Below are positions 10,711-33,327 of a stretch of DNA of 64,000 nt, in pieces; the first letter of the stretch is position 1; every line of letters begins with the position of its first letter. Both the position numbers and the translations under genes were made by a program. The DNA lies in assembly GCF_000801335.2 (NCBI RefSeq), contig NZ_JSEH01000004.1, positions 1-64,000 of the forward strand. The letters are read 5' to 3'. The notes beneath the pieces are model-generated. The model had not been told where the DNA came from and ran no database searches. It saw only the letters and a list, made by a program, of their open reading frames with translations. The stretch comes from Desulfovibrio sp. TomC. GTDB lineage: Bacteria; Desulfobacterota; Desulfovibrionia; Desulfovibrionales; Desulfovibrionaceae.

Positions 10711-10917
10711 TTACTGCAACAGCAATAACCCAGGGGCCGCCGGGGAAGCTGTGGCGGTTTCGATCTTGCCCCCTTCAATGCGATTATTGTTGGCGTCGGC
10801 CACGTACAGCATGCCGGCTTTGCTTACGGCAAGGCCTTGCGGAAAGTTGAATTGCCCGTCGTCCCTGCCGGCGTCGGAGCCGGAAGCGCCGCCGCCGTAG
10901 CGTGTCCAGTTGCCGGC
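10711..10917 (-). pseudogene. 3' stub of an NHL-repeat protein gene
   Basis: An open frame of 90 codons (start 10983) whose last ~68 residues match the C-terminus of the intact NHL-repeat protein at 27438-29216. Compare YGGGASGSDAGRDDGQF with YGGGASGTAAGGDDGQF, then GMLYVADANNNRIE with GMLYVVDTINNRIE, and the same LLLQ ending. The signal peptide and all other repeats are missing, so this is the residue of a deleted paralogue and not a functional gene. It lies downstream of the response regulator at 11165, mirroring the layout at the other locus. Confidence 0.8.
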
Positions 10918-11164
10918 GGCGAGGGAAAATGCGTCCTTTTCCGATTTTCCTGACTCCATCCCTCTCCAGGGGACAGCGAGCACGAATACAACGGGAGGCT
11001 TGTCAGGGATTTTCCTGGTTTTGGTGTAACAGAATTCAGGGACATCCTGCGTCGCGCGAGGACAAGCGGGGAGCGTGGCGCAGGGCGTCAGCGGGAAGGG
11101 CGTAGAAACGCTCGGAACAGGGCCTTCGCGGCCCGATCCGGCAAGGGGGAAAGAGGCTGGTTGG

Positions 11165-15427: not shown

Positions 15428-15608
15428 GGTGACGCTCGAGTCTTTCAAAATGAAGTGTCGTTATTTACAAATCTTCCTGTCACACAGCAAGCACGACCTG
15501 AAACTCGTGCTTAAAATCCGCACTTTTTGGTCCCCAATTTGCCTCCAGAGAAATTTTTCAACAAAAAAATGGCTTCCAGTTTTCATCGCAATCCATTGAA
15601 TTTGCCGA

Positions 15609-15651
15609 TCGGCGCGAAGCGATTCGAACGCTCGGCATCCTGTTCCCAAAG
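15609..15651 (-). repeat. Degenerate tRNA-Pro 3'-half remnant (att-like), oldest copy
   Basis: 43 nt aligning without gaps to the anticodon-loop-to-acceptor part of the intact tRNA-Pro at 29998-30074, with about 7 mismatches by eye. The match stops at cccaaag, the anticodon loop. Read as a displaced attachment-site half left by integration at the tRNA. The 423-bp gap 15449-15871 otherwise holds only the conserved arm at 15717-15795. Confidence 0.65.
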
Positions 15652-15716
15652 CCTTCCTGCTCGGTTGTATCCATAGAAAGAGTGGGATAGTTCTTGAAGT
15701 CCGACAAGTCAGACCA

Positions 15717-15795
15717 GACAAAATCGATCTTCTCCGGACATTCCCGGTTCTCCTGGGGATATCCAACGCCTCGGTTTTCCTCCGTTGGAGCACCA
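15717..15795. repeat. Conserved ~80-bp arm sequence, copy 1
   Basis: Starts gacaaaatcgatcttctccg and continues through a conserved ttcccggttctcc block. Related copies are at 17728-17804 and 27056-27135. Each begins 65-68 bp after a tRNA-Pro remnant. Copies 1 and 3 also share ggttgtatcc in the spacer (15663-15672, 27002-27011). Best read as the element-side arm of an attachment site. Confidence 0.65.
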
Positions 15796-15871
15796 CATCT
15801 CTGGGTTCAATCGGAATCCATCGGCCCAGAGGAGAAACACAGGGGACATGTTTGTGCATCACCTGCAACAT

Positions 15872-16855
15872 TTATTTTTTCGAGCGACAACACGCCTTGT
15901 CGTTGCCGTCATCTTCTTGTTGAGAGAGCTTGTCTCCCAAATCTATTGCTAAAAACGGCAAAGAGCCAACCATCAGTTCTGCGCGCATCAAGGCCATGAA
16001 TGACGCAAGAGGCGGAGAAATCCACTTGTTCTTGTGGTGCAGCATCAGCACGGCCACTTCCAAAGCGGGGCTGTCCCAGGGGAGAACCGCCAGGTTGCCT
16101 GCAGCAATGTCCTCACGGACCGCCGATGTCGGCAAGATGCTCACCCCGAGCCCGTTTCGAAGACATCCCCGGAGCGACGCTGCGCTGGAGAACTCCAGAC
16201 AGGCTGCCGTGCGCACCCCGGCTTCGGCCAGCATGTTTTCAAATACCTTGCGATAGGCGCAATCCGCCGTACAAAGCAGCAATGTCTCGCCGGCCAAGGC
16301 TTCCAGCCCGAAGAGCGCCCCGCCTCGCGCCAGCCGATGCTCCGGTGCGGCCACCAAAACCAGCTCCTCCATGCCAAGAGCTTCCACAATGAGGTCGCCG
16401 GCCCGAACGCTGTCTGCCATGAGAAAGGCGAGATCGGTGATGCCCTGGCGTAAATCATTCTCCAACCCCTCGACGGTGCAAGAGATAAAGCGCAGTTGCA
16501 AATGGGGATACGCCTCTCGAAACTGTCGGATCACGCGTCCCATCCGCCAGGCGCAAAGGGACTCGGGCACTCGAATGGTGAGCACCCCCCGCGCTTCCGA
16601 AGCTCCGGCCACCCAGGCCCTGGCTTCGTCTTCCAGGTCCAGGAGTTTGACAGCCATTTGCTGCAGGCGTTTGCCGGCTTCGGTGAGGGCCACGCTCCGG
16701 CCGAGGCGTTCGAAGAGACGGACCTGCAATTCGTCCTCCAAGGAAGCGATTCGCGCTGAAACCGTCGATTGAGCTGCGTGCACCTCCAGCGCAGCACGAT
16801 GAAAACTGAGATGGCGCGCCACAGCCGCAAAGGTTCGGACATCCCGCAATTCCAC
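15872..16855 (-). CDS. LysR-family transcriptional regulator
   Basis: 327 residues: N-terminal winged helix-turn-helix (residues 1-60, with AAQSTVSARIASLEDELQ and LFERLGRSVALTEAG), then a periplasmic-binding-protein-like effector domain (VLTIRVPESL to about residue 290). It is divergent from the C_GCAxxG gene at 17013 with a 157-bp gap, the classic layout for a LysR regulator and its target. The C-terminus has a short Cys/Lys-rich tail (DDGNDKACCRSKK) beyond the usual family end. Confidence 0.92.
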   Translation of the reverse strand: MELRDVRTFAAVARHLSFHRAALEVHAAQSTVSARIASLEDELQVRLFERLGRSVALTEAGKRLQQMAVKLLDLEDEARAWVAGASEARGVLTIRVPESLCAWRMGRVIRQFREAYPHLQLRFISCTVEGLENDLRQGITDLAFLMADSVRAGDLIVEALGMEELVLVAAPEHRLARGGALFGLEALAGETLLLCTADCAYRKVFENMLAEAGVRTAACLEFSSAASLRGCLRNGLGVSILPTSAVREDIAAGNLAVLPWDSPALEVAVLMLHHKNKWISPPLASFMALMRAELMVGSLPFLAIDLGDKLSQQEDDGNDKACCRSKK

Positions 16856-16879
16856 AAGCGTCTCCTGGGCAGGGTTTGT

Positions 16880-16892
16880 TCGGAATTTCCGA
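16880..16892. promoter_or_regulatory. Candidate LysR operator between divergent genes
   Basis: TCGGAA-T-TTCCGA, a perfect 6-bp inverted repeat with a 1-bp centre, 25 bp from the LysR start codon inside the 16856-17012 divergent region. LysR sites usually contain T-N11-A with dyad symmetry; TCGGAATTTCCGA fits. Position and symmetry are the only evidence. Confidence 0.35.
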
Positions 16893-17012
16893 TCAACCCC
16901 TTCGGATATATTCGCTAGATTCGATCAGAGACCATGATTAAACAGAAATAAAGATCGAAGCAACCGTCGCGCCGACCGTGTTTCGGCACGACGCAACCGG
17001 AGGGCGAAAGCC

Positions 17013-17513
17013 ATGGAAACGCGAGAAGTGGAGCAACGGGCGCAGGAACTGTTTGAAAGCGGCATGAATTGTGCGGAAGCGGTGTTGACGGCTGTCCTGG
17101 CCGGCCAGGGAGTCGAGGCATGCGAACAGGCCGCGCGGCTGGGGACGGCTTTTGGGGCAGGGGTGGGCCGCAGTAAGGAGGAAATATGCGGGGCGCTTTC
17201 AGGCGGGCTCATTGCCCTGGGCTATCTTCAGGGGCGTCGCTGTGGAGACGAAGCCTGGGACGGGTTGGCGGCCCTGGCGGCTGGTGTTCGAAATCGTTTC
17301 AAGGCAGCCCACGGCTGTACCTCCTGCGCCGCCTTGTTGGCCGGGTTCGGAGCACAGGAAGGCATGGACAAGTGTATCCGGCTGTCAGCCCGGACAGCCG
17401 GTCTTTTCCACGACGCTCTCCGAAACCCCGAAGCCGTTGAAACCTCTGGCCCGGCTTGCGGCTGCGCGGCGCGACAGGCCAAGCCGGCCGCAACCGGGCG
17501 TTGTTGCGGGTAA
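17013..17513 (+). CDS. C_GCAxxG_C_C family (putative redox) protein
   Basis: 166 residues. The family pattern is present: GMNCAEAVL (Cys20), a glycine-rich GTAFGAGVGRSKEEICGALSG region (in parts, about residues 46-66), and a later paired Cys (GCTSCAALL). These proteins are common in anaerobes and presumed redox-active, but their reaction is unknown. The Cys-rich C-terminus (CGCAARQAKP...CCG) is unusual. GGAGGG lies about 10 nt before the ATG. Probably controlled by the divergent LysR protein. Confidence 0.85.
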   Translation: METREVEQRAQELFESGMNCAEAVLTAVLAGQGVEACEQAARLGTAFGAGVGRSKEEICGALSGGLIALGYLQGRRCGDEAWDGLAALAAGVRNRFKAAHGCTSCAALLAGFGAQEGMDKCIRLSARTAGLFHDALRNPEAVETSGPACGCAARQAKPAATGRCCG

Positions 17514-17579
17514 CTGTCGTTTTGCATCGTATGCGTGCGGTCGGTTGGCCTCCAGGTTGCCAGCCGCCCGCAAAAGATA

Positions 17580-17611
17580 AAGGGGATAGGCCAACGGTGG
17601 TTTATCCCCTT
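17580..17611 (-). terminator. Hairpin next to the second tRNA-Pro remnant
   Basis: Stem AAGGGGATA / TATCCCCTT with a 14-nt loop; on the minus strand it is followed by a T-rich TTTATCTTTT. It sits just beyond the remnant, where the intact tRNA has its own terminator, so it may be the old terminator of this tRNA end. It could also serve the end of the C_GCAxxG gene. The 17514-18173 gap contains no gene, only this hairpin, the tRNA remnant and the arm repeat. Confidence 0.55.
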
Positions 17612-17617
17612 GAAATT

Positions 17618-17663
17618 TGGTCGCGGCGAGGGGATTTGGACACCCGGGGTCCTGCGCCCTAAG
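17618..17663 (-). repeat. Degenerate tRNA-Pro 3'-half remnant (att-like)
   Basis: Starts with TGG (the CCA end on the minus strand) and aligns without gaps over 43 nt to the intact tRNA-Pro 3' half, with about 7 mismatches, ending at the anticodon loop (cgccctaag). T-loop bases that a functional tRNA needs are altered, so it is not a tRNA gene. Confidence 0.65.
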
Positions 17664-17727
17664 CCTTGCCGTCTTGTCGCATCGAGTTGATAGCCAATAA
17701 TCAATTGAAGATACGTATGGCTGTCCG

Positions 17728-17804
17728 GACACAATCGATCTTCTTTGGGCATTTTCGGTTTCCCATTGGTTCTCCAAAATCCCGGTTATCCAAGACTGGA
17801 GAAC
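17728..17804. repeat. Conserved ~80-bp arm sequence, copy 2
   Basis: Starts gacacaatcgatcttctttg, 65 bp after the tRNA remnant at 17621-17663. More diverged than copies 1 and 3 but collinear over its length (…ttttcggttt…, …cccggttatccaag…tggagaacc). Confidence 0.55.
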
Positions 17805-18173
17805 CATAGTTCAGCGCCATCCGGGAGGTAATTTGAGCCACTCCCAGAGACGAAAGGGACGTATGGACTGCATTGGCGGCGCATGAAGAAGTGTAAACCC
17901 TTGCCGATTGCGCCTCAGCCCGCACAGTGTCACGCCATTCTGTTGACTGTCGCCGCAAGCCATGCGATATTTTTACAAAATGGTATCGTAGCCCACGTTT
18001 GGCCAGCGCTGCGGAAGCATGCACTCTGAGATTTCAGCTGGAGTCATACTTTCCACTTGGAGACGTCTGTCTGTATATTGTTCTGGGACAGTTCTGAAAG
18101 GATATTGATTGCAGGAGTCATTTGTTACGCAGGATGTATGACTTTATTCAGTCCAACAAACAATGGAGGGGTT

Positions 18174-18677
18174 ATGCGTACGTTCATTTTTGTTGCGGTA
18201 TTCGTTTTCACGGCTCTGTGTTCTCAACCTGCGCAGGCTTTTGAGTGCGGTAAACTTGATTTCGGGGCTAAACTGAGCGACATAGACGATGGCAATTTCG
18301 TGTTTTATACGGAGAAAGAAGGCGTTTCATACTATAATTATGTGGGAATTTGCCGTCTCCCGGTGCATCAGAAAGCATCGCCTGCCATCGCCTATGCTTT
18401 CATCGACGGACAATACTATGCCAGAATTATCCGCGTTGTCGGTAGGGATAAAGAAGATATCCTCGCCGATATGAAGAAAAGTCTATGTACCCCAAGCGCT
18501 GCAAAAAACGAAGGGGAATGGAGCTTGTATACATGTGATTTGCCAAACGAAATTGAGTTCAAGTTCAAATATAACAACAAGACTGGCGAGGCGAAGACTG
18601 CTGCCTACAGCAAGTCCTTGCGTGAAAAGATTGGGAAAAGCGGCAAAACCGATCCGGCCGCGTTCTTGGAGAAGTAG
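18174..18677 (+). CDS. Small secreted protein of unknown function
   Basis: 167 residues with a clear signal peptide (MRTFIFVAVFVFTALCSQPAQA, cleaved before FECG). The mature part has four Cys, including CRLPVH, LCTPS and YTCDLP. No family recognised. GGAGGGG directly precedes the ATG at 18174, so the longer frame from 18057 is rejected. Base composition is AT-rich compared with neighbours, consistent with transfer. The hairpin at 18733-18773 follows its stop codon and could terminate its transcript. Confidence 0.72.
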   Translation: MRTFIFVAVFVFTALCSQPAQAFECGKLDFGAKLSDIDDGNFVFYTEKEGVSYYNYVGICRLPVHQKASPAIAYAFIDGQYYARIIRVVGRDKEDILADMKKSLCTPSAAKNEGEWSLYTCDLPNEIEFKFKYNNKTGEAKTAAYSKSLREKIGKSGKTDPAAFLEK

Positions 18678-18732
18678 CCTTTCGGCGAAATCGTCGTGAG
18701 GGCTTTTGAGGTGAAAGCCGACGGCGGCACAA

Positions 18733-18773
18733 GGGCATGGGAACATGCCAAGGAGTGTCCCATGCCCCTTTTT
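18733..18773 (+). promoter_or_regulatory. Hairpin plus U-run covering the ribosome site and start of the ligase gene
   Basis: A perfect 10-bp stem, GGGCATGGGA (18733-18742) with TCCCATGCCC (18758-18767), is followed by CTTTTT. The 15-nt loop holds the AAGGAG of the next gene, and its ATG (18762) lies in the 3' arm. As RNA it looks like an intrinsic terminator for the secreted-protein gene, and it would also hide the start codon of the ligase gene. Confidence 0.6.
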
Positions 18774-20294
18774 CGCATGGTCGCCGCCACGGCAGCGCAG
18801 CGGCCCGAGGCCGTGGCCCTTTGTTGCGGGCCTCGTCACGTCACCTACGCCCAACTGGTTGCAGACGCAGGCCAGCTGGCCGCTTGGCTTTCAAGCCGTG
18901 GTCTTGCCCCCGGCGACCGGCTTGCCGTTCTCCTCCCGAACACCATCGAGCTTGTCGTCGTCATCCTGGCTGCCTGCCGGGCTGAGCTCGTCCTTGTTCC
19001 TCTTTCGCAGGACGCGCCGCCGGCCCGGCAAGCCGAGGTTATCGGGCAGACTGGGGCCAGGGGTCTTGTTTTGGCCGCCGGTTTGGGCGCGGCCATCCCG
19101 GCCGAGGCGCGGGAGCGGCTGGCGGTAACGGTCTGCCTCGGTCGGCCCGAACCGGGAACAGTCGGATATGACGCCTGTCTCGCCCATGCCCCAACCGACC
19201 CTGCGCCCCGGAGCAACGTTGCGGACCCGATCTGCCTTCTGGTTTTTACCTCCGGCTCAACCGGCCGGCCCAAGGCCGTCGCACACAGCCAGGAACGGCT
19301 GGCGCGACGTGTGGAAGCCTTTGTCCAGGCCCTTGGCGTCACGGCCGAGGATACGACCTTGGCCGTATTTTCGGCCTACCGGCCAGTGGTCCTGGTGTTC
19401 CAGGTGCTGGCCATGCTGCGCCAGGGCGGGACCGTCGTGCTGGCCGAACAGCCGGCCCCGGCCCCGGCCGCGTTCTGGCGTCTCTATGGCGAGGTCCGCC
19501 CGGGGTATTGCCTCGTGATGCCCAGTTACGCCCGGATGCTTTTTGCCGATCCGGCCGCCGCCCACGTTGACCATTCACGGCTGCGGTTTTGGCTCAGCGG
19601 CGGCGACTCGCCGGGACAAGCCCTTTATGAGGCGGCCCGGCGAATCACCGGCCGGCCGTATTGCAACCTGTATGGCCTCACCGAAACAGGCCTTGTGGCT
19701 GTGGTCGCGCCAAGCGAAACGGACAAACCCGGCTGCGTCGGCAGGCCCGTCGGGGATGTGTCCGTGCGGCTTGTGGACGACGCCGGGCGGGACGTTCCCG
19801 AGGGGAGTCCCGGACGCCTTCTCGTCACCTCGGCGAACATGATGGTCGGCTATTTCAACGACACCATGGCCACGCATCGGGCCATCGGAACCGGCTGGTA
19901 CGATACGGGCGATTGCATGCGCCGCGACGCCGCGGGCGACTACTGGTTTCTCGGCCGCAGCGGAGACGTCATCGTGCGCCATGCCGTCCAGGTGGTCGCC
20001 GCCCTGGTGGCCGACGTCCTAGCCGGGTATCCTGGCCTGGCCGAGGCCGTGGTGGTAGGGGTGGCCGATGCCGAGGCCGGGCAGGTACCGGTGGCCTTTT
20101 ATCGAACGACCGGCCCTGATCCCGGCCCCGAAGCGCTGCTCCGGTACCTCGCCGACCGGGTGGACGCCTTGTCTGTGCCCGTGGCTTGCCTGCCTCTTGA
20201 GCAGTGGCCGGTGACGCCCCGGGGCAAGACCGACCGACCGAAGCTGACGGCTTTGGCTGTGGCGTCCCTTGGCCGGATGCGCGGGGATGGTTGA
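18762..20294 (+). CDS. AMP-dependent acyl/aryl-CoA ligase family enzyme
   Basis: 510-residue adenylate-forming enzyme (ANL superfamily) that would activate a carboxylic acid with ATP, usually then forming a CoA thioester. Seen: the phosphate-binding FTSGSTGRPKAV motif (about residue 165), the YGLTE aromatic/ATP motif, the hinge region GWYDTGD, and the C-terminal catalytic-lysine region TPRGKTDRPKL. AAGGAG 6 nt upstream sets the ATG at 18762; the frame begins earlier with a GTG at 18696. The substrate is unknown. No carrier protein, thioesterase or other acyl-CoA gene lies nearby; the convergent MFS carrier could move the acid or its product. Confidence 0.85.
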   Translation: MPLFRMVAATAAQRPEAVALCCGPRHVTYAQLVADAGQLAAWLSSRGLAPGDRLAVLLPNTIELVVVILAACRAELVLVPLSQDAPPARQAEVIGQTGARGLVLAAGLGAAIPAEARERLAVTVCLGRPEPGTVGYDACLAHAPTDPAPRSNVADPICLLVFTSGSTGRPKAVAHSQERLARRVEAFVQALGVTAEDTTLAVFSAYRPVVLVFQVLAMLRQGGTVVLAEQPAPAPAAFWRLYGEVRPGYCLVMPSYARMLFADPAAAHVDHSRLRFWLSGGDSPGQALYEAARRITGRPYCNLYGLTETGLVAVVAPSETDKPGCVGRPVGDVSVRLVDDAGRDVPEGSPGRLLVTSANMMVGYFNDTMATHRAIGTGWYDTGDCMRRDAAGDYWFLGRSGDVIVRHAVQVVAALVADVLAGYPGLAEAVVVGVADAEAGQVPVAFYRTTGPDPGPEALLRYLADRVDALSVPVACLPLEQWPVTPRGKTDRPKLTALAVASLGRMRGDG

Positions 20295-20349
20295 GCGAGG
20301 CCGGCCAAGGGATGCCCCGTGTTTTTCCGAATGTGCCGTTGCGCGGTGC

Positions 20350-21987
20350 TCAAAGGTCTTGCGTGTCCTCGGGCAGGAGCCCTGAGGCGGGCTCGGGCAG
20401 CCAGCGCGAGGCAATCAGATTGACGAGGGTGACCAGGAAGGCGATCCCGGCAGCGGCGTAGGCCACTTGGGCGGGGTGGGCGGCGGCGACGGGCAGGACG
20501 GCGGCGAGCCATTGGGTCAGGGCGGCGAAGCATGATCCGAGCATGCGTCCGCCGACGTTGGCCGCGAAGCTTTCCCCTGTGCCCCGCAAGTGCAGTGGAT
20601 AGACACGGGGGAGATAATTCCCCCAGAAGCTGAACTGGCCGATAATAAAAAATCCCGCCAGAAAAAGGCCGCTTTCAAAGGCGGGCAGGCTCGTGGTTCC
20701 GGCCCAGGCGAAGGTCACTGGCAAAATAACCGTCGCCGGAATCAGAAAAAACCGCAGAAGCCTCCTGCGGCTGACAATCCACACCGCCAGCACTGCCAGG
20801 GCGCACCGCCCGCCAATTCCCCCCATCTCCTGGAATGTGGTCACGCGCGCCGCGATTCTCTGTTCCACCGGACCGGCGATGCGGCGTTTTTCCGAGAATA
20901 GCCTCTGCTCGATTTCGCCCTCGGGGCATCCTGCCGCCGTCAACTGGGTCCGAAGCGACGCCTGATCTTCTTCGGACAAAAGCGCGCCCTGGGCCTCGGC
21001 CACGGCGGCCCGGGTCTCGGGCAGCCCGGGCACGATTTGCGGCGCTTGCAGCAAGGCCCCAAAGGAGGCGGCGAAACTCAGCGTGAACATGCCGGTGACC
21101 AGACAGGTGGTGCGCCAAAGCCTGGGGGAGAACAGGGCGGCCACACTTGGCCGACCAAGGCGGCCGGTACGGCGTTTTTCCAGCCAAGGCGGAGATTCCG
21201 GCAGAAAAGGCCGCACCAGGAGAAGCGGCAGGGCCGGCAACAGGCCGGACATGAGCGTATAGCGCCAATCCGCGTGCGGATTGGCGATGTGCCCGAGAAA
21301 GGACAGGAAATGCGGGAGGCCGATCGGCGGCAAGGCCATCGGCGGCAAGGTGAACCAGCCCAATATCTCTATCGGACGGCCGGCAGCCCATGCTGCCGCA
21401 ATGCCGCCGGCCAGGGCCACAAGCAGTCCCCCCACGGAAGAGAAGGCTTGCGTGGTTCCAAGTACGGCCTCGCGCCGGCGTGGTTCGGGAAAAATTTCGG
21501 CCAGCCAGGCCACCGCAGCCACGAATTCCACGCATACTCCGATGAAAACAAGGCAGCGCAGGACAAGCAGCATGGGCAGGTTCGCAGCAAACCCGCTCAA
21601 GAACGAGGAGCACGCATACAGCATGATGCTTGCAGTCAGTATGCGTTGCCGGCCAAAGCGGTCAGCGAGGTAGCCGCCAAGAAGTCCGAAGGCTCCGCCG
21701 GCTATGGCGGGGATATAAAAGAGCAGACCAAACCAGAACGTGAATTCTGGCGAGCCGGGAACAATGCCGCCGAGTTCCATGAGCGCCGGGCGCACGATGA
21801 GCGGAAGCATAAGCAGTTCGTAGCTGTCAAAGAGAAAGCCGCAGGCGGCAACTGCACAAACAAGCCACTCCCTGGCCGTCAGCCGGAGTGGCCGAAGAGG
21901 GGCGGTCACAGATGGGCCGGACACGCCCGGCGGCGACGCAGCGCGCGGAACATCGTTTTTGGTATCAGAGCAGCTGACCAGCAGCAA
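20350..21987 (-). CDS. Major facilitator superfamily transporter
   Basis: About 545 residues with twelve predicted helices. The loop 2-3 signature is GGYLADRFGRQRI and the sugar/acid-porter motif EIFPEPRRREAVLG follows helix 4. A hydrophilic stretch of about 65 residues is inserted between helices 7 and 8 (rich in Glu, Arg and Ala, with one Cys) and is predicted to face the periplasm; that is long for this family. The first codon used here is TTG with a weak ribosome site; internal GTG starts ahead of the first helix are equally possible. Convergent with the ligase gene (55 bp between stops). Confidence 0.82.
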   Translation of the reverse strand: MLLVSCSDTKNDVPRAASPPGVSGPSVTAPLRPLRLTAREWLVCAVAACGFLFDSYELLMLPLIVRPALMELGGIVPGSPEFTFWFGLLFYIPAIAGGAFGLLGGYLADRFGRQRILTASIMLYACSSFLSGFAANLPMLLVLRCLVFIGVCVEFVAAVAWLAEIFPEPRRREAVLGTTQAFSSVGGLLVALAGGIAAAWAAGRPIEILGWFTLPPMALPPIGLPHFLSFLGHIANPHADWRYTLMSGLLPALPLLLVRPFLPESPPWLEKRRTGRLGRPSVAALFSPRLWRTTCLVTGMFTLSFAASFGALLQAPQIVPGLPETRAAVAEAQGALLSEEDQASLRTQLTAAGCPEGEIEQRLFSEKRRIAGPVEQRIAARVTTFQEMGGIGGRCALAVLAVWIVSRRRLLRFFLIPATVILPVTFAWAGTTSLPAFESGLFLAGFFIIGQFSFWGNYLPRVYPLHLRGTGESFAANVGGRMLGSCFAALTQWLAAVLPVAAAHPAQVAYAAAGIAFLVTLVNLIASRWLPEPASGLLPEDTQDL

Positions 21988-22069
21988 GAGATGCAGACGT
22001 ATGCCGAGGTGTTGCGGGCCGCTTGGCCGGTGGGCCAGCGTTCACTTGCGGCATCCCGAAAGGTGTGCC

Positions 22070-22330
22070 CTATTTTGTTGCGCACAAGGCCTGTTGTTGT
22101 CCGTGGGCCTCGTTGGCGTACGGCACAGCCAGCCAGCGGTATCCTGGATCGGCCTTGCCGACAGGACCGATGCCCGGAAAAGAAATATGCGCCCCGGCCA
22201 CAAGGTGCCCGTGGCTTGCCGCCTCAGAAAAAGCCCGTTCCCGTTGCTTGATCGCCGCATCGGGATCGAGGTCGTACTCGATAGCCACGTCGGGGCGGGG
22301 AAATCGGATGATGAGAAAGGCATTCACCGA
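22070..22330 (-). pseudogene. 3' remnant of an MBL-fold metallo-hydrolase gene
   Basis: Open frame extending to 22495, of which the last ~85 residues match the C-terminal part of MBL-fold hydrolases: RFPRPDVAIEYDLDPDAA, RERAF, then HLVAGAHISFPGIGP and GYRWLAVPY. The metal-binding HxHxDH region and the rest of the N-terminal domain are missing, and the upstream frame shows no similarity. The 22331-22853 stretch beyond it holds no other gene; it turns AT-rich toward the next gene and should contain that gene's promoter. Confidence 0.65.
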
Positions 22331-22853
22331 GGTGATTCGAGGGGACGGGACATACGATGCCTGAAGAAGCGCCTCGACCAGAGCGCCACACGGCGGCAGG
22401 AACTCAAATCCAGATTTGGGGCCATGATAGACGCCATCCTGACCGCCTCCGCCGAGGATTTCAAAAAGAGCTCCCCGAGGAGGAAGGGTGCGCATTTTAT
22501 ACTGAGGCCATAGCCAAAAGACGTGGGCTGTGATAACGGCCTTGTCAAATGGGGCCTGCGCGACTTGTGTCGAGAGGCGGCGGAGTACTGAATTGGTTTA
22601 TATTACAGGGATAAGATATTTATCAAACAATAACCATCTCTTTTGAAAATGCACCCTGTCGAAACTTCATCGGATATGGCTTCGCGTTCAGGAGCGTGTT
22701 GCTGGCGCTCCATCTCTCCGCTTTTGCTGCGACGGACCAGATTTTACATGCGTTTTTTTGGCGGAAGGGTTTTAACCTGCAATCATTAGCTGCATCTGAA
22801 GAATGACGCACAGGTCAAAGCGCGCATCAGTCAACCTTTAGTCGGAGGTTACT

Positions 22854-24284
22854 ATGGTCAGTGTGTTAATCAAAGAAGCAAGGCTTTTTTGTCTTTCGAT
22901 TGTTGTCTTGGCGGCTCTCTGTGTCAACGCACAGGCTAAAGAAAATGTTTTTGCTGCTATTCCACTTGGTGTTGAGGCGTATGTTTATGGATATCCACTC
23001 GTGACCATGGAAATGACGCGACGCGTGATGACAAACGTAACGACGCCTGAGGGGACACGCGCCCCAATGGGGCAGTTTGTTCGGATGCGTGCGTATCCCT
23101 CGGCGGAGTTTCGTGACGTGACCGCGCCAAACGCAGATACGCTGTACACAACGGCCTGGATAAACGTGAGTCAGGAACCGTATGTACTCACTCTGCCGGA
23201 TGCCAAAGACCGCTACTACCTCTTCCCCATGCTTGACGGCTGGACGAATGTCTTTCAGGTGCCTGGAAAACGCACCACCGGAACCAAGGCGCAGGTATAT
23301 GCCATCACCGGTCCAGGCTGGAAAGGCAAGCTGCCCGAAGGAGTGAAAGAGTATAAGTCGCCTACCAATCTCGTCTGGCTGCTGGGACGCATATACTGCA
23401 CGGGAACGCCTGAGGATTACTCGGCTGTGCACGCGATGCAGGACGAAATTTCCCTTGTTCCTCTTAGCTCTTATGGCAAGCCTTACACGCCTGCGGCAGG
23501 CAAGGTCGACCCAGCGATCGATATGAAGACTGCCGTGCGTGAGCAAGTCAATGCGCTGAGCGTGTATGACTACTTCAGTCTGCTGGCAAAGTTGATGCAA
23601 GACAACCCGCCTTCCCCGGCTGACAAGCCGATGCTTGCGAAACTGGCGAAGCTCGGGATCGCGCCGGGCCAGCCCTTCGACGGGAGCAAGCTTAACCCCT
23701 TGGCGCGCGAAGCATTCTCCATGGTCCCGAAGATTGCCTTTGAAAAGATCATGCTTTGGATGAAGGAGGGGATCGTCGCTGGGGACATGAAGCTGGAGCA
23801 CGGTTGGCTCTTCACGACCAAGACGGGAGCCTACGGCGTCAACTACATCCAGCGAGCGCTCATCACTGCGATCGGTCTTGGCGCGAACCTCCCCCAGGAT
23901 GCGGTCTATCCAACTTCGGAAGGGCCGAACGTGTTTGAGTCGTATAACGGGGGGAAGAACTACGTGATGCACTTCGATAAAGGCCAACTCCCTCCTGCAA
24001 AAGGTTTCTGGTCGCTGACCATGTACGACAAGGATTACTTCTTTGTAAAGAATCCGATCAATCGGCAAAGTATCAGTGCCCGCCAGAATCTGAAGCAAAA
24101 TGCGGATGGTTCCGTGGATCTTTACATCCAGAACGAAAATCCAGGCCCAGACAAGGAATCCAACTGGCTGCCGGCGCCGAAAGATACGTTTGTCCTGATG
24201 CTGCGTCTCTATTGGCCACAGGAAACCAAGCCCTCAATTCTCAATGGAACCTGGACCATCCCGGCGGTTAAGGCGGTAAACTAG
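22854..24284 (+). CDS. Secreted DUF1254/DUF1214 protein
   Basis: 476 residues with a signal peptide (about residues 1-29, cut after NAQA). An N-terminal DUF1254 domain (AYVYGYPLVTMEMTRR, APNADTLYTTAWINVSQEP in parts) is followed by a C-terminal DUF1214 domain (KGFWSLTMYDKDYFFVKNP, LYIQNENPG, NWLPAP). The two domains commonly occur together in periplasmic proteins of unknown function. GGAGG lies 5 nt before the ATG. A strong terminator follows at 24461-24495, so it is probably transcribed alone. Confidence 0.9.
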   Translation: MVSVLIKEARLFCLSIVVLAALCVNAQAKENVFAAIPLGVEAYVYGYPLVTMEMTRRVMTNVTTPEGTRAPMGQFVRMRAYPSAEFRDVTAPNADTLYTTAWINVSQEPYVLTLPDAKDRYYLFPMLDGWTNVFQVPGKRTTGTKAQVYAITGPGWKGKLPEGVKEYKSPTNLVWLLGRIYCTGTPEDYSAVHAMQDEISLVPLSSYGKPYTPAAGKVDPAIDMKTAVREQVNALSVYDYFSLLAKLMQDNPPSPADKPMLAKLAKLGIAPGQPFDGSKLNPLAREAFSMVPKIAFEKIMLWMKEGIVAGDMKLEHGWLFTTKTGAYGVNYIQRALITAIGLGANLPQDAVYPTSEGPNVFESYNGGKNYVMHFDKGQLPPAKGFWSLTMYDKDYFFVKNPINRQSISARQNLKQNADGSVDLYIQNENPGPDKESNWLPAPKDTFVLMLRLYWPQETKPSILNGTWTIPAVKAVN

Positions 24285-24460
24285 TCCGCACGGGCGAGAG
24301 GAGTGCAGCGAAGACCACGTTCGCCCGTCCAGGCTTCATCGCGTGGTCGCAAACTTGTTGGCTCCGGTTGACCTGCGGCTGCGCGATGATCAGGGGATGA
24401 GACGCAGGCAAGCCAACGGTCGGGTGCTCAAGGAGTGGTCGCTGATGCGGTACAGACGTG

Positions 24461-24495
24461 GGCGGCGCGGTCGTTTCAGGCCGCGCCGCCTTTTT
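24461..24495 (+). terminator. Rho-independent terminator
   Basis: Perfect 10-bp stem GGCGGCGCGG / CCGCGCCGCC with a 10-nt loop and TTTTT directly after. It would end the DUF1254 transcript, 177 bp beyond its stop codon. The rest of 24285-24903 contains no gene that could be supported, only the tRNA remnant at 24664. Confidence 0.85.
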
Positions 24496-24663
24496 CACGT
24501 TTGCCGGGATCGATGATGCCTGCAGAGTGGGCAGGGGTCGCAGAAGGGGGACAGTTGTTCTCCCGGGAGAACCTTCGCCGGGCCACCGGCGTCAGTTCCG
24601 GCAGTTGTGCCACGCGCTGTTCTTGAAGCAGCCCTGGCGCAAACACCTCCGTTCGAATCTATC

Positions 24664-24709
24664 TGGTCGGGGCGAGGTGATTTGAACACCCGACATCCTG
24701 CTCCCAAAG
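24664..24709 (-). repeat. tRNA-Pro 3'-half remnant (att-like), nearly intact
   Basis: TGG followed by 43 nt differing at one position from the 3' half of the tRNA-Pro at 29998-30074; identity ends exactly at the anticodon loop (ctcccaaag), beyond which the sequence is unrelated. No D-arm or 5' acceptor strand is present, so it cannot be a working tRNA gene. Confidence 0.75.
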
Positions 24710-24903
24710 CCGCACAGCCGGCGAGCTCTATGGGAGCATTGTCGATCGATCGCAGGTAGGTGCAACCGCCTCACGGCTCTTCCTGGCTCTCTACGTCAGT
24801 AAACTCCTGGCCTGGTGGACGGGCAGCGTATCGCCCTCCAAGGTTCGGTCCGCTTCACGCCACGCAGTGAAGAGCCAACAACAAACCTGTCCCCAAGGAG
24901 AGG

Positions 24904-26625
24904 TCAAGAACGCACCGGGATGCCAACGTTGTTGAGCTTCGCCCGCATTGACGGACTCAAGGGAATGACAAGCTCCGCATTGTATGAACCGGTGGGGGGA
25001 TAGCCCCTGGGATTGTGGAAAATCTGCTGGACGGCCACGGCATAGGCGCGCGAGGTCGAGGCTGGCGACCCCTCCTGAACGTCCGGATTGAAGTCGGCGG
25101 CCAGGATGGACAAAGTGCCGTCGCTGTTGCGCAGGATCTCGAAGGTGCGAAATTGCTGGGGGAAGTCCCGGAGCGAGGAGGTTTCGATCTGCCAGAACCC
25201 CAGTTCCGGGCGGGAGCCATCGGGCGAGGCAAAAGCGGTAATGGCGTTGCAGTGCCGGTGTCCCGCGATCCAGGCGATGAGATTGGGATAGGTCTGCAGT
25301 TTGGCGATCAGTTCCGGCTCGGAGATGGCGGCGGCGGCGTACCAGCCGACCGGGGAGGTTGGCGGCTCGACGCCGATGGGAGCATGGGCGGCGATGATCA
25401 TGAGCCTGCCCTCGGCCTGGCCCCGGTCCAGTTCGCCCACAAGCCAGTCCAGGCGCGCCTTGTCCAGGGAGCCATGTCCGTAGCCGGGGGAACTCGTCCG
25501 GGACATGGGTTGATCGACATCGTCTTCCCGCTGGGTGTCGTCGACCACAATCACCGTCAGCGGGATATCCGGCCTCGGCTCGAAGCTGTAGCAGGCAAAG
25601 TTGTTCTCGGTATTGGCCTGGCTGAAGCCGTGACCGACCGGAGTCGAAGTGGTGTGAAAAAATTCGGCCATCCACTCCTTGGGCGTCAGGGAGCGGCGGT
25701 TCGGATCGGCCACGACCTTGGGCGGGCTGGGAAAGTCCGCCACCGGACCCATGCCGACGATATCGCCGTAGGGCGTCCGGCCGTCGATGACCCCCTGGTA
25801 GGTTCCCCGGCTGTCAATCCCCTTGGGATCAGCCAGGAAATCGCCGAGATTCAGGACATGTTCACCGGTATAGACCTGTCGAAAATATTCCGTCACCGGG
25901 AAGGAACCAATGAAAAAATGATCGTGGTTGCCGCGCGCCTGATACCAAGGGATGGACTTGTTCAGCCCGGCCGCCTGGAACGGTTTTTGGTAGTCGATGC
26001 TGTCGACGCCGACATGCGCCCCGGAACTGGGGGTGATGGCCTTTCCGTCCAGGACGTCAAGATACCAGCGCAGTTCGTTGTACTGGGTATTGTTGCAGGT
26101 ATCCCCCAGGGAGATGCCGAAATCCAGGGGATCCTGTTTGTGGATGGCGTTTATCGTTCGCACCGCCGCATCCAGGACCTGGGTCGTGTACAGCATGGCC
26201 GGGGAATAGGCTGCGGAAATGTGGTGTTTGAGGCCAAGGGCGAAGAGCTGGGCCGGGCTTTCCTTGTCGGCGATATGGATGTCGGAGATGGTAAAAAACC
26301 GCACCAGCCGGGCAACCGGTTTCCCGGCCGGGGCGCCATGGTTGGCGGGCATGAGGTCCAATCTCTTGGGAACGGCGAGGGGCTCGCCGAAGCTCCAGAA
26401 GCCATAGCCTGACTCGGCGTATTTGGCGACATCCGTGGGCCGCAACTTGGGCGAGGTGGCGGGCACGGGAACGGGGACGACGCTGCGCGCCAGTGTCGCC
26501 AGCGACTGGGCGGCGGCATTCACCGGGGAAAGGATCCATTCGACACCGGCCGCCAGCCCGCCGCAAGCAACCAGAGCGGCTCCGGAGAGGCTGGTATTGA
26601 GAAAATTCCGCCGGGAAAATTTCAT
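24904..26625 (-). CDS. Tat-exported metallophosphoesterase (TIGR03768-like)
   Basis: 573 residues. The twin-arginine signal SRRNFL (residues 4-9) is followed by a hydrophobic segment, so the protein is probably exported folded with its metals. All calcineurin-like metallophosphatase motifs appear in order: SDIHIAD, GDTCNN, GNHDH, AHAP and GHRHCN. Length and the stretch between GNHDH and AHAP fit the PPA1498/TIGR03768 family, whose substrate is unknown. It stands alone in island B. The 319-bp gap upstream to 26944 has no gene that could be supported. Confidence 0.88.
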   Translation of the reverse strand: MKFSRRNFLNTSLSGAALVACGGLAAGVEWILSPVNAAAQSLATLARSVVPVPVPATSPKLRPTDVAKYAESGYGFWSFGEPLAVPKRLDLMPANHGAPAGKPVARLVRFFTISDIHIADKESPAQLFALGLKHHISAAYSPAMLYTTQVLDAAVRTINAIHKQDPLDFGISLGDTCNNTQYNELRWYLDVLDGKAITPSSGAHVGVDSIDYQKPFQAAGLNKSIPWYQARGNHDHFFIGSFPVTEYFRQVYTGEHVLNLGDFLADPKGIDSRGTYQGVIDGRTPYGDIVGMGPVADFPSPPKVVADPNRRSLTPKEWMAEFFHTTSTPVGHGFSQANTENNFACYSFEPRPDIPLTVIVVDDTQREDDVDQPMSRTSSPGYGHGSLDKARLDWLVGELDRGQAEGRLMIIAAHAPIGVEPPTSPVGWYAAAAISEPELIAKLQTYPNLIAWIAGHRHCNAITAFASPDGSRPELGFWQIETSSLRDFPQQFRTFEILRNSDGTLSILAADFNPDVQEGSPASTSRAYAVAVQQIFHNPRGYPPTGSYNAELVIPLSPSMRAKLNNVGIPVRS

Positions 26626-26891
26626 GATGCGCCCTCCTGTTTTCTGTCCTGGCGACGATTGCGATCATGCGGCCCGTTGACTGGCCGACGCGTCCAGGCG
26701 TCCTGCCGATGGTCCGGCCGCAGCGCCCTTTCCATGCATCGGGCTTGCACCCCTGCCAGACTGTGAGTGATCAGTGCCGCATCTTCGGGATTGGGGCAAG
26801 AGAATCGGCAAGGCAGCTCCGTTTCCCCAGACGGCATGGCATTGGACCGCCATGTCCGGCGGCCTTTTTATACTCCATATCGTATCCAGCC

Positions 26892-26988
26892 AATTTTCCA
26901 CGAAAAAGGGCCTACGAAATATTCGTAAGCCCTTGAAATATAACTGGTCGGGGCGAGGTGATTTGAACACCCGGCATCCTGCTCCAAA
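26892..26988 (-). repeat. Copy of the tRNA-Pro 3' half with its terminator
   Basis: About 95 bp nearly identical to 29948-30044 at the intact tRNA. It includes the terminator hairpin (gggcctacgaaatattcg and taagccctt, about 26908-26935), TGG and the tRNA 3' half. Identity breaks near the anticodon loop (gctcc then aaaaa). This is the least diverged remnant and the one nearest the intact gene. Confidence 0.8.
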
Positions 26989-27055
26989 AAACCTCATGGT
27001 TGGTTGTATCCTTTGAAATAATTTAATATTTATCGTCGGCGGATAAGCCCGGATG

Positions 27056-27135
27056 GACAAAATCAATCATCTCCAGGACATTCCCGGTTCTCCGGTTGTT
27101 ATCCTAAATCCCTGGTTCCCAAGTGCTGGAGAAGC
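27056..27135. repeat. Conserved ~80-bp arm sequence, copy 3
   Basis: Starts gacaaaatcaatcatctcca, 68 bp beyond the tRNA remnant, and runs through ggacattcccggttctcc to tggagaagcc. Collinear with copies at 15717 and 17728. The stretch 27136-27437 that follows holds no gene; from about 27230 it matches the region left of the NHL stub (10440-10710). Confidence 0.65.
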
Positions 27136-27437
27136 CGATCGCAGCGCCGGCCGCGAGACAATTCCCAGGTTCCTCGGGTTGTAGTCCTGTTTTGCTCCCC
27201 TTGGGATAAACAGGGCAGAGTTTACGCGTCTGCGGGATTGGGCATGCGATGTCCGGTCCGCAAGGAGCGTTTGCGGTCCCGGGAATCGCCAGAATCCCCT
27301 GAAGCGTTACGCCAGGGAGGCTGTTGTTGAGGTCGAGGACAATGCCTGCCCCGGGAACGGATCAACGCGCCGCCCCCCCGTGCGACAGGCGGTCGGGGAA
27401 CCTCCGTGATGGCGGATAACGCTTCCCCTGCCTGCGC

Positions 27438-29216
27438 CTACTGCAACAGTAACGACGCGATGGGGGCTGGCGAAACCGTCGTGGTCGCGACCTCGGCCGC
27501 TTCGATGCGATTGTTGATCGTGTCGACCACGTAGAGCATGCCGGCCGTGCTCACGACCAAGCCTTGGGGAGCGTGGAATTGCCCGTCATCGCCGCCGGCG
27601 GCCGTGCCGGAAGCGCCGCCCCCGTAGACACTCCAGTGGCCGGATGCGTCGCGGACCTGGATGCGGTTGTTGTCGGTATCGGCCACATAGAGGTTTCTCA
27701 ACGCATCCACGAACACGCCCGACGGGGCCTGAAACTGGCCTGGGCCGGTGCCGCTGGAGCCGATGACCGTCCAATTGCCGCCGGTGTCGCGGACCTGGAT
27801 GCGGTTGTTGTCGGTATCGGCCACATAGAGGTTGCTGGAACTGTCCACGGCCACGGCCTTGGGGCTGGAAAACTGCCCGAGGCCGCTGCCAAGTGTGCCG
27901 ACGGAAGTCCAGTTGCCGGAGGTATCGCGGATATGGATGGCATGGTCCATTTCGGCCACATAGAGGGTGTCGGCTTTGTCCACGGCCATGCCCAAGGGAT
28001 GGTACATCGTGGAGTCCTCGTAGCTCGACCAATGGCCGGAGGGGTCACGTATCTGGATGCGGTTGTTATACGTGTCGGAGATGTAGACGTTGCCGGAGGC
28101 GTCGACCGCCACGCCCGACGGGTATGCGAATTGTCCGAGGCCGTCGCCGGGCCCGCCGATGAGCGACCAGGTTCCGGCGGTGTCGCGCGCCACGACGCGT
28201 GAGTTGAACGTATCAGCGACATAGATCGTGCCGGAGCCGTCCACGGCCACGGCCAGGGGCCAGCCGATAAATCCCAATTCCGAACCCGCGCTGCCCCAGA
28301 TCATCGTCCAGGCGCCTGTGGCTACGGATGTGCCCGTGACAACGCAATTGTTGTCGGTGACATAGATGTGGCCTGAGCCGTCCACGGCCACCGCCGTGGG
28401 GTTCGCGAAGGTGCCGTTGCCCGAAGACGTCCAGGTGCCGGCCGTGTCGCGCATCTGGATGCAGTTGTTGTCATCGATCACGTATATGTTGCCCGATCCA
28501 TCCACCGCCACGTCCCGGGGCCAGAGGAACTGCCCGGGACCCGAGCCAGAGGTGCCGTAACTGGTCCAGTTGCCGGAGGTGTCCCGGACCTGAATGCGGT
28601 AGTTGTCGCCATCGGTCACGTACAGGTTGCCCGAGCTGTCCAGGGCGATGCCGCCCGGGGATGCAAACTGGCCGACAGCGCTGCCATGCGAGCCGATGGC
28701 CGTCCAGTTGCCGGACGTATCCCGGATCTGGATACGGTAGTTTTGGGAATCAGCCACGTACAGTTTTCCGGAGCCATCCACGGCGATGCCCCACGGGTAT
28801 GCAAACTGGCCGACAGCGCTGCCGCTTGTGCCCATTGTGGTCCAGTTTCCGGCGGTGTCGCGCACGAGGATTTTATTGTTTTCCGTGTCAGTGACGTATA
28901 TTGTACCGGAGTTATCGACGGCAACCGCCTTGCCAAACGTTCCAACGGAAGCGTCCGGACCCTGTATTTTCGTCCATTTTCCGGCATTGTCGCGCCGTTC
29001 TATCTCGTTTAACTCTGTATTGAGAATGTACATCGTTCCGTTACTGGCGAAAGTTACATTCACAGGCTTTCCAGTTCCGTAAGTGAACTGGCTGGTGTCG
29101 ACCGGCGCTATTCTGGTAAAATCCAGTGTTTTCGCCGCAAAGACCGCCCCTGCCCACATGGTGAAAGCCAGGATGAGCAGGGTGTGAACAAGTTGGCGTC
29201 TCATAACGTGTCCCAT
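27438..29216 (-). CDS. Secreted NHL-repeat (beta-propeller) protein
   Basis: 592 residues. A signal peptide (about residues 1-27, ending GAVFA) is followed by roughly a dozen NHL-type repeats of about 45 residues, each with a core like GIAVDGSGKLYVADS then YRIQIRDTSGNW. The folded product should be one or two beta-propellers outside the cytoplasmic membrane, usually a binding surface. Repeats are also alike in DNA: a ~45-bp stretch at about 27652 recurs almost exactly at about 27792. AGGAG lies 6 nt before the ATG at 29216. The same C-terminus survives as a stub at 10711-10917. Confidence 0.88.
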   Translation of the reverse strand: MGHVMRRQLVHTLLILAFTMWAGAVFAAKTLDFTRIAPVDTSQFTYGTGKPVNVTFASNGTMYILNTELNEIERRDNAGKWTKIQGPDASVGTFGKAVAVDNSGTIYVTDTENNKILVRDTAGNWTTMGTSGSAVGQFAYPWGIAVDGSGKLYVADSQNYRIQIRDTSGNWTAIGSHGSAVGQFASPGGIALDSSGNLYVTDGDNYRIQVRDTSGNWTSYGTSGSGPGQFLWPRDVAVDGSGNIYVIDDNNCIQMRDTAGTWTSSGNGTFANPTAVAVDGSGHIYVTDNNCVVTGTSVATGAWTMIWGSAGSELGFIGWPLAVAVDGSGTIYVADTFNSRVVARDTAGTWSLIGGPGDGLGQFAYPSGVAVDASGNVYISDTYNNRIQIRDPSGHWSSYEDSTMYHPLGMAVDKADTLYVAEMDHAIHIRDTSGNWTSVGTLGSGLGQFSSPKAVAVDSSSNLYVADTDNNRIQVRDTGGNWTVIGSSGTGPGQFQAPSGVFVDALRNLYVADTDNNRIQVRDASGHWSVYGGGASGTAAGGDDGQFHAPQGLVVSTAGMLYVVDTINNRIEAAEVATTTVSPAPIASLLLQ

Positions 29217-29717
29217 GGTTTGCTCCTGTGCAATTGCCGCGTGACTGCTTTATTATGCGGATACGCCGGACGGCCGATGGTGTAGATCATCCTTCTTGAC
29301 CGTTCAGGAAGCTTTTTCGAGAGGCCGCAGTGCATAAAATGGTCAGTTTCGTCCGGGAAGCGATCCTTGCGCGTGCCATGGGCAACAACCCCATCGGCCC
29401 TGCCAGGTCTCCTGGAACGACACCCGCCCACGATCACCTCCACCGCCTTCGATGGGGATTTCGTAGCGTAACTCTCTAAAATTAAGGCTTATTACCCCAT
29501 TTATCCGGGCATTGGCTTCGAAACGGATAGCGCGAAAACGGCAAGAGGTCTGTCGGGGATTCCCGTGATTCTGTGTAGCGGAATTTGGGGACAGCCTCGC
29601 CGCGCCCGGCCAAGGTGGAAGAGGAGCCGGATTGTCCCGGCGGTAAGGCGGGCAGTGTTGCCCGGGCTGGGGATGTCCCCGGCCGGGCCTCGGAAAGGCA
29701 GGAGGCGGACTCGGCCG

Positions 29718-29863
29718 GTCAGCCGTGCTGCCGGATGGCCAACTTGCGCCGTTTCTTCATGCAGGAAAACCCGAGTTTGCGTATCAAGCGGCCGTAATAG
29801 GTCTCTTGACGGGATGGTCGTCGACCAGAAAGACGCGCACACCGGATGTCGCAACCTAATCCA
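29718..29863 (-). pseudogene. Decayed copy of the NarL-type response regulator
   Basis: The C-terminal ~28 codons (ETYYGRLIRKLGF, KLAIRQHG) match the regulator at 11165-11806 (ETYYGRLLRKLGL, KFAIRRHD). They are joined to the first ~20 codons (gggatggtcgtcgaccagaa is shared), with about 530 bp of the middle missing. The upstream 3'-flanking sequence (about 29530-29717) also matches 10985-11164. No partner kinase is present; the tRNA begins 135 bp away. The rest of 29217-29717 contains no supported gene. Confidence 0.75.
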
Positions 29864-29963
29864 GACAACTTCCCGGAATATTGTATGTGTACATTAAGGG
29901 CCAAGCCTAACGGCATCCCTTTTGTCCCACAGGACGGCCCACAGGAGAATTTTCCACGAGAAA

Positions 29964-29990
29964 AGGGCCTACGAAATATTCGCAAGCCCT
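29964..29990 (-). terminator. tRNA-Pro terminator
   Basis: On the minus strand, AGGGCTTGCGAATATTTCGTAGGCCCT in parts: outer stem AGGGC/GCCCT, inner CGAA/TTCG, then TTTTCTC. It lies 8 bp after the CCA end. The same hairpin is duplicated at about 26906-26935. Confidence 0.75.
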
Positions 29991-29997
29991 TGAAATA

Positions 29998-30074
29998 TGG
30001 TCGGGGCGAGGTGATTTGAACACCCGGCATCCTGCTCCCAAAGCAGGCGCGCTACCAGTCTGCGCCACGCCCCG
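29998..30074 (-). tRNA. tRNA-Pro (anticodon UGG)
   Basis: 77 nt including an encoded CCA. Acceptor stem CGGGGCG/CGCCCCG, D-stem GCGC/GCGC, anticodon stem CCTGC/GCAGG with loop TTTGGGA (anticodon TGG), T-stem GGGTG/CACCT with loop TTCAAAT. It is the only complete copy in the window. It lies 62 bp downstream of amrS in the same direction, and its 3' half has served as an integration site several times. Confidence 0.95.
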
Positions 30075-33067: not shown

Positions 33068-33267
33068 CAGTATTGGGGCGTGCGGTCTTTCCCGCATCGC
33101 TTCATTCCGTCGCGACGACGCCGCCCCGGGCGGCGGGGAAGCTTCCACCGGCCGCTGGAGCCACGGGGATTCCTGTCAAGCGTTGGCTTCTTCTGTCCTG
33201 GTCCACAGCCGACCCGATTCCCCGTAGTCCCCAAAACCCCTTTACAAACTTCTCCAATTGCAGGGGT

Positions 33268-33288
33268 CCGGGGGGATCATCCCCCCGG
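33268..33288. repeat. Dispersed intergenic palindrome, copy B
   Basis: CCGGGGGGA-TCA-TCCCCCCGG, flanked by caggggt and ccgccggaggcattctttc. In reverse complement about 60 bp matches copy C at 60390-60455, including the trailing gaagttt. It lies 40 bp after the end of the leftward radical SAM gene. Confidence 0.8.
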
Positions 33289-33327
33289 CCGCCGGAGGCA
33301 TTCTTTCTCTTTATCCCCTTGTCCCCA

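Follow-up and report, generated by a model that had tools for sequence, protein, structure and literature searches.

The window, a 64,000-nucleotide stretch of the genome of Desulfovibrio sp. TomC (G000; 5.07 Mb in 84 contigs), holds one tRNA gene recognized by ARAGORN, an intact tRNA-Pro(TGG). On its 5' side lies a host gene, presumably of the radical SAM type, and on its 3' side four further copies of the tRNA 3' half are interspersed with small gene units, designated A to D (Table 1). Within this span the G+C content of 1-kb bins falls to its lowest values of 0.522 to 0.538, compared with 0.58 to 0.69 across most of the window; an earlier note on this DNA had described some of the segments as AT rich, which holds for those parts but not for the rest of the span.

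Table 1. Features of the tRNA-Pro locus (window coordinates)
Feature	Position	Strand	Basis
Displaced 3' half, outermost	15606-15652	-	38/47
Element end E1 adjoining 15609 half	15656-15832	+	nhmmer 127 bits; in training set
Unit A	15653-17664		Conserved block in G013 and G009
LysR regulator, unit A	15872-16855	-	Pfam
C_GCAxxG_C_C protein, unit A	17013-17513	+	Pfam
Displaced 3' half	17618-17664	-	40/47; G009 has a counterpart between its A and B
Element end E1 adjoining 17621 half	17665-17841	+	nhmmer 122 bits; in training set
Unit B	17665-22080		Block found in G013, G006, G009
Small ORF, unit B	18057-18677	+	
AMP-binding enzyme, unit B	18696-20294	+	Pfam
MFS transporter, unit B	20350-21987	-	Pfam
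Deleted-down gene remains	22101-22471		Three separated pieces matching G004
DUF1254/DUF1214 protein gene	22854-24284	+	Pfam; located elsewhere in relatives
Putative relic, phage Mom-like DNA-modification gene	24557-24652	+	Similarity to G013:C28 and UViG protein
Displaced 3' half	24664-24710	-	46/47; terminator region lost, no element-end match
Unit C	24711-26989		Shared horizontally with G001
Metallophosphoesterase gene, unit C	24904-26625	-	Pfam
Terminator region of 26945 half	26904-26944	-	Repeat and profile match
Displaced 3' half	26945-26991	-	44/47; 44/45 before crossover edge
Unit D	26990-29997		
Element end E1 adjoining 26945 half	26995-27163	+	nhmmer 142 bits; sequence in training set
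NHL-repeat-like secreted protein gene, unit D	27438-29216	-	Named by eye, without profile search
tRNA terminator hairpin region	29961-29997	-	97% repeat of 26904-26941; profile match 29959-30043
Intact tRNA-Pro(TGG), proposed integration target	29998-30074	-	ARAGORN; 77/77 identical at 11 congener loci
Host gene, 5' side of tRNA	30136-31152	-	Anchor in relatives

The earlier note had placed remnants of the tRNA at 15609, 17621, 24664 and 26945, facing as the intact gene does and stopping at the anticodon loop. When the 47-nt 3' half of tRNA-Pro(TGG) was compared, ungapped, with both strands, all four were confirmed, on the strand of the intact gene (47/47 at 29998) and with similarity ending at the anticodon loop; those at 17618 and 15606 look older. 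The next best site in the window reaches 27/47 and the maximum in 60 simulated second-order Markov windows was 30, which excludes chance similarity. The differences over 47 nt number 9 at 15606, 7 at 17618, 1 at 24664 and 3 at 26945, close to the 7, 7, 1 and 0 to 2 over 43 nt counted by eye in the note. The outermost half was aligned by BLAST over 44 nt at 84% (about 6 to 7 mismatches in 44), and two of the three mismatches of the 26945 half lie at the crossover edge. Divergence therefore drops toward the intact tRNA in two steps: the proposed age gradient stands insofar as the outer halves are more diverged, but a smooth gradient is unsupported, and the mismatch counts give no order for the 24664 and 26945 halves. 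A profile of the terminator plus 3' half found the terminator region beside the halves at 15609, 17621 and 26945, and not at 24664, a feature that the earlier note does not mention.

Fourteen genomes of the genus (G000 to G013; fetched loci carry L-numbers) were compared, with the tRNA's 5' neighbor gene as the host anchor. A search with the protein of this neighbor gave 587 loci, of which 80 were kept; one of these, from Solidesulfovibrio aerotolerans (L027), was recognized as belonging to the genus. The tRNA and its 5' neighbor were located in 12 of them; G002 and G007, both incomplete, yielded no tRNA locus. At least one displaced half is present in 10 of these 12 genomes, the exceptions being G008 and G010. 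Halves lie on the tRNA contig and in the same orientation in seven (G000, G001, G003, G004, G005, G009, and G011), and on other contigs in G006, G012, and G013. The two halves of G006 and the one of G012 are on contigs without a link to the tRNA contig, and one Pro half of G013 is on contig C28, about 7 kb from an intact tRNA-Met. In G004 and G005, where the matches fall on one chromosome-sized contig, there are one and two strong displaced halves, within 16 kb and 42 kb of the tRNA, respectively, and in its orientation.

That the halves are a dispersed tRNA-derived repeat or a chance likeness, unlinked to the neighboring genes, is almost certainly wrong. Although 3' halves of other tRNAs with terminators do occur elsewhere in G000 (contigs C13 and C17), the Pro matches all exceed the simulated maximum, the unit boundaries coincide with the halves, and a dispersed repeat is unsupported where contigs are chromosome sized, as the strong halves of G004 and G005 are confined to the locus. 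Remnants scattered through the genome, which the earlier note had regarded as potential counterevidence, were thus not seen in these two genomes, and one half of G013 does lie off the locus. The half of another tRNA at G000:C17 103254-103332 (L006, L010) has a similar terminator, and no intact tRNA was found in the 16-kb stretch around it.

Past the crossover at 15609, 17621, and 26945 lies a shared element end of ~170 bp, termed E, likewise not mentioned in the earlier note. Fetched loci were scanned by nhmmer with an E profile built from 14 sequences, including these three window sites, and an E match adjoins 13 of 17 displaced Pro halves. Seven of these 13 are in the training set and six are outside it (L133:12795, L137, L139, L142, L146:11639, and L156); the latter all represent a diverged form, E2, with weak matches at L142 (E value, 0.012) and L156 (E value, 0.038). 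The same scan of 17 halves gave no E match at window position 24664, L127:4496, L130:17963, or L144:6115. Of the 99 genomes covered by a DNA search, 6 contain E; all six belong to the 14 genus genomes, and the 85 others gave no match. GTTATCC-like repeats, noticed by eye within E and to the left of the terminator in several relatives, are as would be expected of arm sites.

The element end E also adjoins 3' halves of tRNA-Arg, as found by BLAST in G000, G003, and G005 and by eye in G001 and G006. Local duplication, in which the tRNA 3' end was copied in tandem and the intervening genes came by other routes, is consistent with the single orientation and single locus of all copies; it is nevertheless highly improbable, as the flank past the core is the shared element end rather than tRNA-adjacent host DNA, and this end recurs beside the tRNA-Arg halves.

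Four further sites (L127:11500, L133:1185, and L147:9408 and 16108) have element ends that are preceded not by a tRNA half but by only the ~17- to 20-nt anticodon-loop core and a shared motif containing GTTAGGY, which was recognized by eye. This arrangement would fit small passengers that entered an attachment site already in place.

Units A and B resemble long-standing residents that were passed on mainly by vertical descent. For unit A, identity is 86.8% over 1,972 bp in G013 and 83.8% over 1,745 bp in G009; for unit B the values are 86.7% (G013), 85.8% (G006), and 84.1% (G009). Compared with the host background identity to G000 (90.6%, 85.0%, and 81.5% in G013, G006, and G009), these values fall short in G013, are on a par in G006, and are somewhat higher in G009, and identity of A and B at fourfold sites overlaps the host range. 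The order of unit A, a half with its terminator, and unit B is retained in G009, which suggests that the 17621 half predates that split. On its right, B is followed by the intact tRNA in G013, by a half and then E1 in G006, by different sequence in G009, and by the gene remains and the DUF1254 gene in the window. The arrangement in G013, with B directly beside the intact tRNA, is the state that would be expected before the right-hand units came. The earlier note had suggested looking for empty sites and for relatives that lack a segment, and G013 is a relative without the younger segments.

A counterpart of the 15609 half to the left of unit A was not found in G009 (score of 24, against a shuffle mean of 23 and maximum of 36) or in G013, and near position 22080 of the window B's own right-hand half is missing where relatives have it. 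In G013, unit A is found on contig C28 with a tRNA-Pro half and E2 (L146:9665-11624, L159:39-115), near tRNA-Met and off the tRNA-Pro contig, so a rearrangement would be needed. To the left of the outermost half, window positions 10711-10983 contain a fragment that resembles the NHL-type gene of unit D in its C-terminal part (76% identity over 205 bp), with no half or element end beside it in the profile scan, which is perhaps an older, lost layer. The repetitive coding DNA at positions 1-2300 probably encodes a portion of a large repetitive protein; it aligns many times to tandem repeats that lie left of unit B in G006.

Unit C has a different history. Its protein is 92% identical in G001, and the five other homologues in the 59 genomes searched have 48 to 63% identity. 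At the DNA level, identity to G001 is 92.1% over 1,902 bp, compared with a host background of 80.7%, and fourfold-site identity is 0.852, compared with 0.566, 0.719, 0.716, and 0.746 in four host genes. Along the block, the gene shows 0.90 to 0.94 identity to G001, one 128-bp bin 0.81, and the half 0.956; past the core, identity drops to 0.667 over 64 bp, is 0.86 where E is conserved, and lies near 0.6 farther out. The neighbors differ on both sides: the unit D gene was not found in G001, and left of C there are only distant kinase matches. Because identity is well above the host level and similarity falls at the tRNA core, unit C is, on sequence evidence, an att-bounded unit without an integrase that was transferred horizontally. 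Besides the two-step age signal, the ordered accumulation proposed in the earlier note has to be corrected in that unit C passed between species and that the half expected right of B is absent from the position it has in relatives.

A second unit of this kind is present in G003, where a 46/47 half and E1 are followed, without an integrase in 3.2 kb, by the intact tRNA; in G012, a half adjoins a counterpart of 2.5 kb of this unit, with 89.1% identity, compared with 81.2% for the host (G003 is listed with 8% contamination, and the contig in question carries its tRNA-Pro and host gene).

Other parts of the window show decay. Positions 22101-22471 match G004 as three separated pieces (88, 88, and 81%) of a gene that is whole in G004. 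The Mom-like relic of ~96 bp, which abuts the 24664 half and is single copy in G000, is 85.6% identical to G013:C28 over 97 bp, and 22 amino acids match a UViG protein at 73% (E value, 6e-4); the UViG protein matches PHROG 1384, and the window ORF alone gave no PHROG match. In G013, the Mom-like gene adjoins tRNA-Met. On an IMG/VR contig, it adjoins a small and a large integrase of the integrase family described below, so one layer of the stack is probably phage derived. As a separate observation, a short sequence at about 33140-33325 has about 20 more matches in G000 contigs and many in G013 and G006, and is a putative dispersed repeat of the clade.

Such decay, together with the integrase fragment of G009 described below, the vertically inherited appearance of A and B, and flanking repeats long enough for homologous exchange, would also be compatible with integrase-less units that were never mobile themselves: large islands would have decayed in place, and blocks like C would have been swapped between species by homologous recombination across halves and element ends. 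We give this explanation slightly less than an even chance, as the right edge of the similarity of C lies at the att core and not in flanking sequence, and the integrase-less G003 unit has a counterpart in G012 with identity above the host level.

Integrases were not found in the window and are present in congeners. A profile made from five integrases of one family, which distant integrases would escape, detected no integrase relic in positions 1-31000 (hmmsearch, frames of ≥40 amino acids, E value of ≤1e-3), and tblastn with ten integrases at E values of ≤5 gave only weak matches (best E value, 0.06), in agreement with the earlier note that no recombinase gene survives. The profile likewise found none in the stretches from G003, G008, G010, G011, G012, and G013. 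Among the matches listed, PF00589 is represented in all 14 genomes of the genus. By the five-integrase profile, G005 and G006 both have a full-length integrase adjoining tRNA-Pro, and G005 also has one adjoining a displaced half; shorter ones lie at tRNA-Pro in G001 (317 amino acids) and at a half in G006:C122, and G009 retains a 73-amino-acid fragment at tRNA-Pro; two weaker matches occur in the G004 segment. These are Phage_int_M plus Phage_integrase proteins, i.e., PF00589 tyrosine recombinases. The other check proposed earlier, for integrases adjoining tRNA-Pro(TGG) in relatives, was thus also favorable, and serial integration at one tRNA-Pro is supported.

No integrase match on plasmids was found at E values of ≤1e-30, and an IMG/VR search with the integrase returned four loci, one close (90%) and three at 27 to 30%. 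Pairs of a small (about 190 to 240 amino acids) and a large (about 350 to 380 amino acids) tyrosine recombinase recur in element loci of the genus (L133:10474-12471, L245:14753-16927, L246:17548-19535, L248 to L252, and L254) and on one IMG/VR contig. Phage records, 119 of which matched the 301-bp stretch around the tRNA, were set aside as evidence on the element, as most of the 20 listed are annotated as tRNA-Pro.

The tRNA-Arg arrays share more than the element end. In G005, the array extends from about 3,398 kb to an intact tRNA-Arg(TCT) near 3,451.5 kb. It includes two pairs of a small and a large integrase and, between two E copies, a homologue of the phosphoesterase. In G000:C13 and G003:C10, Arg halves are adjoined by homologues of the NHL type. 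Counting against a strict link of cargo to E, the scanned stretches around the phosphoesterase homologues G000:C9 and G006:C98 and the NHL homologue G013:C25 contained no E or Arg-half match.

The Pro integrase of the E1 element in G005 (L133:11416-12471, compared with L134 and L245/L246) agrees in its N-terminal part with two Arg integrases (48 and 49 of 50 residues), compared with 33 of 49 for the other Pro integrase, while its catalytic part is 83% identical to the other Pro and 70 and 69% to the Arg integrases. The two G005 Arg integrases are 98% alike and were counted as one. A single breakpoint accounts for 72 of the 85 informative sites, a fit which 0 of 10,000 permutations reached; the sites are nonindependent, and this overstates the certainty. 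The protein looks like a mosaic of an Arg-like arm-binding part and a Pro-like catalytic part.

The stack is best explained as the remains of mobile elements that integrated serially at one tRNA-Pro(TGG) via a tyrosine recombinase, with a probability of roughly 0.87. This reading is well supported by halves that exceed the simulated maximum, their single orientation, E beside most halves, integrases in congeners, the recurrence there of the window's segments as discrete units, the retained order in G009, the arrangement of B in G013, and the transfer of C with its edge at the core. A tyrosine recombinase would cross over at the anticodon loop, and each arrival would supply its own tRNA 3' half and terminator, keeping the tRNA whole and displacing the previous half. 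Units A and B would be old layers, mostly inherited vertically; the younger unit C arrived horizontally as, or was cut down to, a single-gene unit lacking an integrase; and unit D would be the layer adjoining the tRNA. Integrases and most element genes would since have been lost from the window, with live versions kept in congeners. We infer that integrases of the relatives' family made the insertions in the window, and that the integrase-less units were moved by a helper's integrase.

Taken further, this would amount to a cassette system in Solidesulfovibrio: integrases of resident islands would act in trans to insert units of one or a few genes that carry conserved integrase arm sites and a tRNA 3' half, cargo would circulate between the tRNA-Pro and tRNA-Arg arrays, and the G005 mosaic would represent natural retargeting. 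Arms that stay constant while the tRNA half and catalytic part change would lead to the cargo families common to both arrays. We regard this extension as unlikely.

The serial-integration stack has parallels in several known systems. CIMEs of the ICESt1-related elements reportedly keep att sites at both ends after losing integration and transfer genes and accrete in tandem. The window units similarly keep att sites, lack integration and transfer genes, and are accreted in tandem; unit D is bounded by a half with E1 at one end and by the intact tRNA at the opposite end, and unit C has no E match on its left. Integron gene cassettes consist of one or a few genes with a recombination site and are stacked with the newest nearest the site, the integrase being encoded outside the unit. 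Few-gene units stacked at a fixed locus with the integrase outside the unit are common to both, but the site here is a tRNA half with arm-like repeats and the integrases are of the Phage_int_M plus Phage_integrase type.

The Islander description (PMC4383910) requires an integrase within a tDNA island; it counts 125 tandems with two or more members and 4 with at least three, and credits Desulfovibrio magneticus RS-1 with 19 islands, apparently its maximum. The window resembles those tandems in its intact tDNA with displaced 3' fragments on the right side and in the right orientation, in its anticodon-loop attachment site, and in the tyrosine integrase of live relatives. Unlike them, it has at least four stacked fragments, and whereas a tandem there has an integrase and a fragment for each member, here the fragments are present but the integrases are not, so the Islander filter would reject the units (PMC4383910). 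The window units are integrase-less remains and not Islander islands. The ssrA islands of Dehalococcoides (PMC3146451) also comprise tandem units bounded by repeats of the 3' end of one RNA gene; 16 of them carry an integration module, and 15 that lack it are read there as possible cis-mobilizable elements. The ssrA islands differ in their tmRNA target, T-loop crossover, and serine recombinase (PMC3146451), compared with tRNA-Pro, the anticodon loop, and tyrosine integrases here. The window fits a known kind, that of tandem tDNA islands and integrase-less units. Literature searches brought up neither an account of this locus nor a naturally occurring mosaic of Pro and Arg integrases.

Notable features are how deep the stack is, the transfer of a single gene with an edge at the core, and the sharing of arms and cargo across two tRNA targets. 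With four halves, at least one of them of sufficient age to be shared with another species, the order of gene gain can be read and checked in relatives, and tools that require an integrase miss such stacks. The genus is also a natural test of tRNA-target change by integrases, since the element arms are alike between the Pro and Arg arrays while the tRNA halves and catalytic parts differ. If helper integrases do move the units, single genes would spread via tRNA sites as cassettes do via integrons.
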